DNA from: Bradyrhizobium erythrophlei
Lineage (GTDB): Bacteria > Pseudomonadota > Alphaproteobacteria > Rhizobiales > Xanthobacteraceae
Assembly: GCF_900142985.1 (NCBI RefSeq)
Contig: NZ_LT670849.1
Span: 4,356,501 to 4,420,500 of the forward strand
Reading direction: 5' to 3'
Length of the DNA: 64,000 nucleotides
Within the stretch, counting starts at the first letter, position 1, and each line of letters opens with the position of its first letter. The notes under the pieces are model-generated. The model saw only the letters and a list, made by a program, of their open reading frames with translations. It was not told the DNA's origin and did no database searches. Of this stretch, positions 4,547 to 43,953 are shown piece by piece. Made by a program: the position numbers and the translations under genes.

Positions 4547-4552
4547 TTATCG

Positions 4553-4962
4553 GTATCAGCCGGCCTGTAAGCCGGGTTCTGTAGGGCCTTGCCCGCATTG
4601 CTGCGGCCAAGACGTGGCGGCCATTCCTCTGGGACAGCGCTTGCGCGTTGCCTCGAGCAACCTACCCGGACGGCGAGCCTGACATCGCTCCCGCGGGCGT
4701 TTTCGCTTTCGCGAACGACCCGCGTCGCCATCCCTATTCGGTCTTGCTCCCGGTGTGGTTTGCCGTGCCGGTTCCGTTGCCGGACCCGCGGTGCGCTCTT
4801 ACCGCACCTTTTCACCCTTACTGCCTCCCGAAGGAGGAAGCGGTTCGTTCTCTGTGGCACTTTCCCTGGGGTTGCCCCCGCCGGATGTTATCCGGCACCG
4901 TATGTCGATGGAGCCCGGACTTTCCTCTCCCGCGAGGGAGCGGCCGCCCGGCCGACTGACGT
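4553..4962 (-). ncRNA. rnpB: RNase P RNA (class A)
   Basis: This is the catalytic RNA that matures tRNA 5' ends. On the minus strand the hallmark 5' segment GAGGAAAGTCCGGGCTCC and the 3' segment CAGAACCCGGCTTACAGGCC are both present, together with the internal GGTAAGAGCGCACCG block and GGGTGAAA. The closing helix P1 forms between the complements of 4950-4958 and 4557-4565 (nine pairs, one U-G), which sets the ends to within a few bases. Length about 410 nt fits alphaproteobacterial RNase P RNA. All apparent ORFs across this interval are artefacts. Confidence 0.95.
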
Positions 4963-17902: not shown

Positions 17903-17940
17903 GCTGGCGAATGTCAAATCCAACCAAAATTCGATATTTG

Positions 17941-18011
17941 CCAGTGGTCCTTTGATTCCAACATTTGTAAAAGTGCCTGCTGAGCAGGGATACCAAGAAT
18001 CGGACCACTAG
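17941..18011. repeat. palindromic repeat A (murF-mraY)
   Basis: Outer arms 17941-17950 and 18002-18011 pair except for one mismatch; GATTC (17954-17958) pairs with GAATC (17997-18001). The loop contains a small CCTGCT-G-AGCAGG hairpin. Its left half resembles repeat 43878-43953 base by base (CCAGTG, TTGATT/TTGGTT, ACATT, GTGCC). It is the most degenerate copy of the family. Confidence 0.75.
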
Positions 18012-18086
18012 TACCGCCGATCTGAAGTCCCTACAGCGCAAGCGGCGAACCCGATCAGGGACTTCAGATCGATTAAGCGGTACTAG
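18008..18086. repeat. palindromic repeat B (murF-mraY)
   Basis: CTAGTACCGC (18008-18017) pairs with 18077-18086, and CGATCTGAAGTCCCT (18018-18032) with 18057-18071. All 25 pairs are perfect, with a five-base bulge ATTAA on the right arm only. It shares its CTAG end with repeat A. Confidence 0.9.
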
Positions 18087-18100
18087 AATCAATGAGTTTG

Positions 18101-18177
18101 CTAGTGCCCATTGGCTTTCCGAAGTTCGCGAAGGTGGGCGCTGCGATGGATCACGAACTTCGGAAAGTGGGCACTAG
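18101..18177. repeat. palindromic repeat C, abutting the mraY start codon
   Basis: CTAGTGCCCA (18101-18110) pairs with 18168-18177, and CTTTCCGAAGTTCG (18115-18128) with 18154-18167. All 24 pairs are perfect, with a four-base TTGG bulge on the left arm. Its last base is immediately followed by the ATG of mraY, so any ribosome-binding sequence is inside the right arm. Confidence 0.92.
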
Positions 18178-19281
18178 ATGTTTTACTGGTTGATCGAACT
18201 GTCCAACACGGTTCCGGCGTTTGCCTTCCTGCACAGTCTTCTGAACGTGTTTCGCTACATCACGTTTCGCACTGGCGGCGCGATGGTGACGGGTGCGCTG
18301 TTCGTCTTTCTGTTCGGGCCCTGGATCATCGACCATTTGCGGCTCCGCCAGGGCAAAGGCCAGCCGATCCGCACCGACGGCCCGCAGTCCCATCTCGTCA
18401 AAAAGGGCACGCCCACCATGGGCGGGCTGATGATCCTGTCGGGGCTCGTGGTCTCGACCGTGCTCTGGGCCAATCCGGTCAACCCTTATGTCTGGATCGT
18501 GCTCGCAGTCACGCTCGGCTTCGGCTTCATAGGCTTCTATGACGACTACCTGAAGGTCACCAAGCAGAGCCATAGCGGCTTTGCCGGCCGCATCCGCCTG
18601 CTGCTCGAGACGATCATTGCGCTGGTCGCCTGTTATGCGCTGGTGCGGCTCGGACGCGAACCGTTCTCGACCTCGCTGGTGATTCCCTTCTTCAAGGATG
18701 TGGCGCTGAATCTCGGCTGGTTCTTCGCGGTGTTCGGTGCGTTCATCATTGTCGGCGCCGGCAATGCGGTGAACCTGACCGACGGGCTCGACGGGCTTGC
18801 GATCGTGCCGGTGATGATCGCGGCCGCGAGCTTCGGCATGATCTCCTATCTCACCGGCAACGCGGTGTTCTCGGACTACCTTCAGATCAATTACGTGCCC
18901 GGCACCGGCGAACTCGCGGTGATCTGCGGCGCGGTGCTCGGCGCAGGCCTCGGCTTCCTCTGGTTCAACGCGCCGCCGGCCTCGATCTTCATGGGCGACA
19001 CCGGTTCGCTCGCGCTTGGCGGCATGCTCGGCTCGATCGCGGTTGCGGTGAAGCACGAGATCGTGCTCGCGGTGATCGGGGGGCTGTTCGTGCTGGAAGC
19101 GGTCTCGGTGATCGTGCAGGTGACGTCGTTCAAGCTCACCGGCAAGCGCATCTTCAAGATGGCGCCGATCCATCACCATTTCGAACAATTGGGCTGGACC
19201 GAGCCGCAGATCGTGATCCGGTTCTGGATCATCTCGGTGATGCTGGCGCTCGTCGGCCTCTCAACACTAAAGCTGCGGTGA
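18178..19281 (+). CDS. mraY: phospho-MurNAc-pentapeptide translocase MraY
   Basis: A 367-residue ten-helix membrane enzyme making lipid I from UDP-MurNAc-pentapeptide and undecaprenyl phosphate. Catalytic landmarks are [11 protein letters not shown] (Asp122/Asp123), [10 protein letters not shown] near residue 199, and the HHH motif [11 protein letters not shown] near 331. The start ATG directly follows palindromic repeat C. The only purine-rich sequence upstream (GGAAAGTGGG) lies in the hairpin arm, so translation may depend on coupling or on opening of this hairpin. The stop is 4 bp before the murD start. Confidence 0.95.
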
Positions 19282-43785: not shown

Positions 43786-43863
43786 CTAGTGCGGCGACTC
43801 TGACGTTCCTTTCAGTTTCGCAGCGACCTGTTCAAAGGAACGTCAGAGTCCAAGCCGCACTAG
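43786..43863. repeat. palindromic repeat D1 (upstream of prmA)
   Basis: CTAGTGCGGC (43786-43795) pairs with 43854-43863, and GACTCTGACGTTCCTTT (43796-43812) with 43834-43850: 27 perfect pairs with a three-base CAA bulge on the right arm. It has the same plan as repeats B and C at murF-mraY. Confidence 0.92.
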
Positions 43864-43877
43864 AAAACCAATATATG

Positions 43878-43953
43878 CCAGTGTCCCGTTGGTTCTGACA
43901 TTCGTAGCGGTGCCCGTTGTGACAGATTACGAATGTCAGAACCGGGACACTGG
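43878..43953. repeat. palindromic repeat D2 (upstream of prmA)
   Basis: CCAGTGTCCC (43878-43887) pairs with 43944-43953, and GGTTCTGACATTCGTA (43891-43906) with 43928-43943: 26 perfect pairs with a three-base GTT bulge on the left arm. The left half and flank (ATATATGCCAGTG) match repeat A and its flank (GATATTTGCCAGTG). Confidence 0.92.

Follow-up and report, generated by a model that had tools for sequence, protein, structure and literature searches.

The Correia elements of Neisseria and the RUP elements of Streptococcus pneumoniae are reported to derive from the IS630 family of insertion sequences (PMC2817692), and an IHF site has been reported within Correia elements (PMC2649163). ISY100, a member of the same family, is described as duplicating the dinucleotide TA upon insertion. 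IS630 itself reportedly prefers the TA in CTAG, a preference attributed to Tenzen and Ohtsubo in 1991 (as cited in PMC2170065). In Bradyrhizobium, Br-REP1 and Br-REP2 have been described as repeated palindromes of intergenic regions (PMC5082802). GTAG-14 families with large loops have also been reported from this genus, and the GTAG/CGTC repeats are characterized by a GTAG or CGTC tag and by stems of 6–13 bp, the GTAG families being linked to tyrosine transposases (PMC3733652).

The window, by which we mean the whole 64-kb stretch of Bradyrhizobium erythrophlei DNA that was analysed, contains five palindromes that a sequence-only reading had assigned to one family: A (17941..18011, plus strand), B (18008..18086, minus strand), C (18101..18177, plus strand), D1 (43786..43863, minus strand) and D2 (43878..43953, plus strand). 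When the window was read and each palindrome folded, all five were found at these positions and with the plan proposed for them, comprising 10-bp outer arms, a bulge on one side, inner arms and a loop; the arms of B, C, D1 and D2 do pair perfectly, over 24–27 pairs each, while differing in sequence. Folding gives 10+15 perfect pairs and a loop of 24 nt for B, 10+14 pairs and 25 nt for C, 10+17 pairs and 21 nt for D1, and 10+16 pairs and 21 nt for D2; A is imperfect and its arms have decayed. Perfect arms of at least 13 bp enclosing loops of 15–30 nt occur at four centres in the window, which are B, C, D1 and D2, and by the same criterion 20 dinucleotide shuffles of the window produced one instance in total.

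The palindromes are not five separate units. B pairs with C, and D1 with D2, each pair forming one composite of 168–170 bp. In composite 1, the type-I hairpin B, with a 5-nt bulge on its spacer-proximal arm, is separated by an AT-rich spacer of 14 nt (18087..18100, plus strand) from C, a type-II hairpin with a 4-nt bulge that ends at the start codon of mraY. Composite 2 consists likewise of D1 (type I, 3-nt bulge), an AT-rich 14-nt spacer (43864..43877, plus strand) and D2 (type II, 3-nt bulge), the last having CCAG...CTGG ends. Folded as single-stranded DNA, B+C and D1+D2 reach z scores of -8.9 and -15.0 respectively, and in neither case was any of 200 shuffles equally stable. Palindrome A is the type-II hairpin of another, older composite. 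The stretch that precedes it (17907..17940, plus strand) holds the inner-arm sequence of a lost type-I hairpin (17907–17921), followed by a degenerate stretch and the spacer, and its alignment with the remainder of L042, which is an intact member of the same subfamily, shows that A closes an older copy now truncated. The last CTAG of A is also the first CTAG of B, and composite B+C begins inside this terminal CTAG of its predecessor. The three tandem copies described between murF and mraY represent one composite and the remnant of another. CTAG had also been noted as a rare sequence that nonetheless marks palindrome ends, and this proved accurate: the window has 18 such sites against approximately 216 expected from base composition, and six of them form the ends of B, C and D1, so that the element accounts for a third of these rare sites. 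No Rfam family was matched on the palindromes at gathering score when the window was scanned. The only Rfam match in the window at that score is bacterial RNase P class A RNA, at 4552–4959 on the minus strand (288 bits).

With composite 1 and the remnant between them, murF and mraY stand 275 nt apart, and these sequences touch the mraY start codon. The corresponding gap measures 9–10 nt in 13 and 45–185 nt in 15 of 28 relatives, none of which has a hairpin of this plan between the two genes, and the gap is too rearranged among them to show the target. Within 18101–18190, the mraY ATG (18178) follows immediately on the last CTAG of C, and GGAAAG, the only purine-rich stretch a short way upstream, lies inside the stem, so that the translation start of this essential gene may be affected.

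Further genomic copies had been expected and are abundant. A pattern search of the 7.5-Mb genome of origin (G000) located 41 places on the plus strand, and a covariance model derived from 20 hairpins returned 150 matches there from the best 150 of 2896 candidates, all with E below 1e-4 and including some hairpins counted on both strands. The alignments of model matches contain at least 245 distinct hairpins in this genome, which form at least 117 mirror-image pairs and leave 11 hairpins without a partner; hairpin counts throughout come from the best 150 of 174, 150 of 167 and 150 of 262 alignment rows, those beyond the best 150 being the lowest-scoring and in many cases the second strands of hairpins already counted. 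The composite is non-coding and about 165–170 bp long, with one hairpin, an AT-rich spacer of 13–14 nt and a mirror-image hairpin; in the copies that were read, the two halves are unlike in sequence (types I and II) and have bulges that face the spacer. It is the occurrence of such mirror pairs with a spacer throughout the genome that identifies B+C and D1+D2 as two copies of one composite. The spacer is 12–14 nt long in 110 of 117 composites, 241 of 245 hairpins carry the bulge on the arm nearer the spacer, and the foot of the hairpin is CTAG or a close variant. A script that presupposes a bulge found it to be exactly TTT in 109 of 245 hairpins, and by the same script 99 of the 245 are perfect, mismatches affecting 274 of 6323 pairs overall. 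Close neighbours in this genome, considered as possible split copies flanking a gene, turned out to be separate composites. A simple codon-usage script called both neighbouring genes for 81 of the 117 composites, the other 36 being unclear; the neighbours are co-directional for 47 of the 81, divergent for 19 and convergent for 15, and for nine the overlap with a called gene exceeds 30 nt. The spacers have a GC content of 25% and a consensus near CAAAYTTAT(T)GATT. The consensus for IHF binding is WATCAANNNNTTR, and 39 of 117 spacers come within one mismatch of it, compared with 2.2 for shuffled spacers, a comparison in which kinship among the spacers is retained; an IHF-like site in the AT-rich spacer is at most hinted at by this resemblance.

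The affinities of the element most likely lie with IS630. The DDE domain of that family (PF13358) is present in six of the seven genomes searched and absent from the genome of origin, where three matches to NF033545 all fall below cut-off and have no matching ends around them. With no IS630 transposase (PF13358) detected in that genome, its copies of the composite are probably fossils. In related genomes, several IS630 elements of about 1.2 kb lie between CTAGs and have the ends CTAGTGTCCTGAA[CT]CA[GA]AAGTTCG; the protein of one of them (L375) belongs to the IS630 family by NCBIfam NF033545 (274 bits, cut-off 100), and Pfam assigns it a DDE_3 domain. Among 40 IS630 stretches scanned, two of which are the same place, the 24-nt type-II end of the composite from one relative, G010, recurs with at most four mismatches at both ends in six distinct loci. 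When the same 24-nt end was compared with the window, it matched three times at up to seven mismatches, on each occasion at an outer arm of these elements: that of C (18154..18177, minus strand) with five mismatches, that of D2 (43930–43953) with six and that of D1 (43786–43809) with seven. The outer arm of B (18008..18031, plus strand), which is the other end of composite 1, has the same layout with more than seven mismatches, and the type-I end in general lies further from the IS630 end than does the type-II end; three of the four ends in the window are thus 5–7 mismatches away. The core motif falls at position 17 in all eight IS630 ends, in 204 of 245 outer arms from the genome of origin (31 lack the motif and 10 have it elsewhere) and in 111 of 123 outer arms from other species (11 without, one elsewhere). 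On the evidence of sequence, the outermost 24-nt arms are arranged like the terminal repeats of IS630-family elements in related genomes. In the inner arms the bulge shifts the motif relative to the outer arms, to positions 20–22 in 215 of 245 hairpins and 19–21 in 109 of 123 cross-species hairpins, so that the inner arms are probably not used as ends. At 14 of the 17 PF13358 places in G010, which were inspected, the ends of intact elements are 6–7 mismatches off, and the nearest IS630 end, with five, belongs to a broken copy with one end; in none of the genomes examined do recent copies of the composite occur together with an IS630 whose ends match closely. The genome of origin contains many IS1182-family transposases, 13 of them full-length and above cut-off with further frame-split ones. 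IS1182 was considered as a source, but its ends, such as GGCTGTGTGAAAAC, do not match.

The element has spread recently in G010, where seven copies are 98–100% identical over 165 bp. Comparison of flanks at one of its insertions there shows a single CTAG in G056, G054 and G061, beside which G054 and G061 carry other DNA, and CTAA in G004. An insertion in G061 corresponds to a single CTAG in G004 and G056 and to TCAA in G010. At a third site, also a G010 insertion, the four relatives are divided between TTAG (two) and TCAG (two), with no CTAG. Occupied sites have CTAG at both ends and the empty counterparts of two of the three sites have one, which fits duplication of TA or of CTAG alike. The terminal CTAG also belongs to the hairpin and changes in matched fashion, as in the CCAG...CTGG of D2 and the CTGG...CCAG of L029. 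In one insertion common to G013 and G018 (L057, L063, L071) the type-II hairpin ends GTAG...CTAC, like a GTAG-REP tag, directly before an ATG. Because the outer arms match IS630 ends with the same motif spacing and empty sites have a single CTAG, the composite is most likely an IS630-type MITE and not a REP/RAYT element; we are fairly confident that it is a non-coding, non-autonomous element of IS630/Tc1-mariner type. An IS630 transposase supplied in trans would bind the outer arms and cut there, and the element would be pasted at the TA of CTAG with duplication of the TA. The inner arms repeat the end sequence with the motif displaced by a bulge of 3–5 nt, often TTT, and the spacer may serve as an IHF-like bend site, bringing together the ends of so short an element, while the arms of each hairpin would be kept matched at the level of DNA, either through correction of one arm by the other or through selection of the DNA hairpin.

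At an E value of 1e-3, with the best 150 candidates per genome scored, the model found matches in 10 of 31 genomes, the genome of origin included and all of one genus, ranging from 1 to at least 150 per genome. The exact pattern recovered at least 118 stretches across GTDB genomes, and among the 80 loci listed are records of Bradyrhizobium, Afipia, Nitrobacter, Hyphomicrobium, Caulobacter, Phenylobacterium, Devosia and Magnetospira, besides a few labelled as other phyla that include metagenome bins and two actinobacterial isolates. The element is present in several alphaproteobacterial orders. The model gave 262 matches in the GTDB loci, of which the best 150 contain 123 hairpins in 62 loci, making 54 mirror pairs. 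In 18 pattern loci with no second hairpin, inspection of the longest reading frames by eye recognised no transposase beside the end. Three loci (L169, L219 and L209) have the same end and a different interior, with 167, 167 and 284 bp between ends. The two 167-bp elements come from actinobacterial records and the 284-bp element from a gammaproteobacterial bin; all have CTAGTGYCCTGNNYCCGAAGTTCG ends and no double hairpin, and they are perhaps simpler relatives of the composite. Partial matches to the composite, at 60–80% identity and with no named feature underneath, were found in nine plasmid records, from Roseibium, Labrenzia and Ochrobactrum; phages gave no match to the composite. Other short repeats occur at L325:4092-4260 and L325:10870-10985, about 125–170 bp and 105 bp in size, with dozens of copies in G004, G056, G054 or G061.

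Identification as a MITE alone leaves three features unaccounted for, namely the hairpin ends, the covariation of the arms and the slower change of arms than loops at shared insertions. Covariation, which the sequence-only reading had recognised from the palindromes, is borne out beyond all of 500 shuffles and beyond slid controls. As the search pattern had fixed one type-II arm, the partner, type-I hairpins were used in this test; 47 were taken from other records, out of 54 pairs, with at most one per locus and with some loci from the same genome bin. Across these, 98.2% of 1079 cells are paired and 18 of 23 pairs have changed on both sides; two-sided changes affect 168 cells and one-sided changes 11, and 19 cells are unpaired. 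None of 500 shuffles reached any of five covariation measures and slid controls were 27–41% paired, relatedness being retained in these controls, and RNAalifold predicted nearly the same helix. In the genome of origin, 241 of 245 hairpins entered clustering and 228 fell into eight clusters of six or more, within which there are 276 matched and 23 unmatched double changes, against about 32 doubles expected if the arms were independent. Paralogues diverge by 5–15% in their arms versus 20–45% in their loops. Four insertions are common to several species, and in the comparisons G005/G018, G018/G013, G004/G061 and G015/G061 the arms differ at 18 of 364 sites and the loop, spacer and bulge together at 43 of 227 (Fisher p 1e-7), although shared insertions were found through a model match of both members and the slower change of arms may in part be ascertainment. 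The arm changes concerned are four matched doubles, two unmatched doubles and six one-sided changes. Further comparisons of shared insertions gave arm differences of 0/108 (G005/B. zhengyangense), 0/108 (G061/G054) and 1/54 (G018/B. zhengyangense), one of the two hairpins being counted for the last pair and for G018/G013.

The initial assignment to a mobile or structured-RNA family stands in its first half, in that this is a dispersed mobile family. If the hairpins were instead transcribed and selected as RNA, with a role in processing, stability or attenuation within operons, this would agree with the strength of the covariation, with arms that change less than loops after insertion, with the position of composite 1 between murF and mraY and with the 47 of 81 composites that lie between co-directional genes. 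Yet on the transcript strand of those 47 composites G·U is no more favoured than A·C (34 vs 40, p 0.56), and compensations by transversion are not depleted, the ratio of transitions to transversions being 56:27 in matched doubles vs 112:69 in singles (p 0.41). Transversion compensations as free as single changes, together with the want of a G·U preference, make the covariation point to DNA rather than RNA; the 15 convergent and 19 divergent settings and the lack of an Rfam match at gathering score also count against a structured RNA, which we consider improbable. Mobilization as REP or REPIN elements by a Y1 (RAYT) transposase, to which the palindromes had also been likened, deserves scarcely any credence. 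Two inverted hairpins around a spacer do recall the layout of REPINs and BIMEs, the copies are many and intergenic, and there are the GTAG...CTAC ends of the one insertion common to G013 and G018. However, the Y1 transposase domain PF01797 was not found in G000, G010 or G004, with G015 giving one weak match (24.5 bits, cut-off 23); the foot is typically CTAG and not GTAG, the hairpins are about 78 nt long rather than 20–40 nt, and the element has a CTAG target and ends that match IS630.

We favour an origin of the matched arms in the DNA itself, through copying from arm to arm or through selection on the DNA hairpin. Copying, with one arm as the template of the other in replication or repair, could proceed by template switching, by correction of quasi-palindromes or by mismatch repair acting on an extruded hairpin; it would make the covariation a mutational by-product and is compatible with a MITE; template switching has been described as an arm-matching mechanism for RNA genes (PMC8794818). 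We would give this account close to an even chance. It agrees with the 299 doubles observed against some 32 expected for all variants, with the 83 matched doubles beside 181 one-sided changes among rare variants of the 228 clustered hairpins (those carried by no more than two cluster members), with the make-up of doubles, in which transitions and transversions are proportioned as in singles, with the very few wobble cells (11 one-sided vs 168 both-sided) and with the four matched doubles at shared insertions. Against it, no inverted loop occurs in 228 hairpins, doubles are not clustered (four adjacent vs 2.9 expected), the one-sided bulge is retained in 241 of 245 hairpins, and copying alone should not slow the arms, which it would have to do to leave them behind the loop, spacer and bulge. 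Selection for a DNA hairpin or cruciform, whether for transposition or for a role in the host, would remove copies with mismatched arms, and would suit the conservation of the bulge and its side, covariation with no wobble preference and arms slower than loops both in paralogues and at shared insertions. Nevertheless, related IS630 elements, examined by eye, have no such end hairpin, and inserted copies should escape any requirement of transposition, yet four matched doubles have arisen at shared insertions; this account is plausible, but we would sooner expect it to fail. A wider proposal is that there exists a widespread IS630-type class with DNA-hairpin ends, in which the transposase reads the outer arm, the bulged inner arm pairs, and the arms co-evolve by DNA copying. 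We put this forward tentatively and think it rather unlikely; if true, elements of this kind would be taken for structured RNA in comparative tests with no RNA involved. The covariation of this mobile element does pass the usual tests for structured RNA without the G·U signature, which bears on how such tests are read, and more than 100 copies in one genome, with insertions common to species, amount to a natural experiment on arm matching in long palindromes.

We found no description of a double-hairpin design in the open-licence literature, which was the scope of the search, subscription papers and ISfinder lying outside it. The consensus of Br-REP1 has no match in the window at up to three mismatches, and Br-REP2 differs from the composite in a comparison by eye. 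Br-REP1-like sequences, again within three mismatches, number 15 in the other stretches analysed. REP, REPIN, BIME and GTAG/CGTC repeats resemble the composite as intergenic and often paired palindromes, but the GTAG/CGTC repeats are distinguished by their descriptions in tag, stem length and transposase link. The IS630 elements with CTAGTGTCC ends (L371, L375, L381, L382, L387 and L419) have in common with it the outer 24-nt end, the position of the core motif and the flanking CTAG, and differ in being about 1.2 kb long, in having a transposase gene and in having no end hairpin. Correia and RUP elements are, like the composite, short, non-coding and present in many copies, with ends in common with IS630-family elements; in contrast to them, the ends of the composite are long, bulged hairpins placed mirror-wise around a spacer of 13–14 nt. 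Most probably the composite is a MITE of IS630 type with a new double-hairpin design, and it would add a two-hairpin architecture to the MITEs already known.
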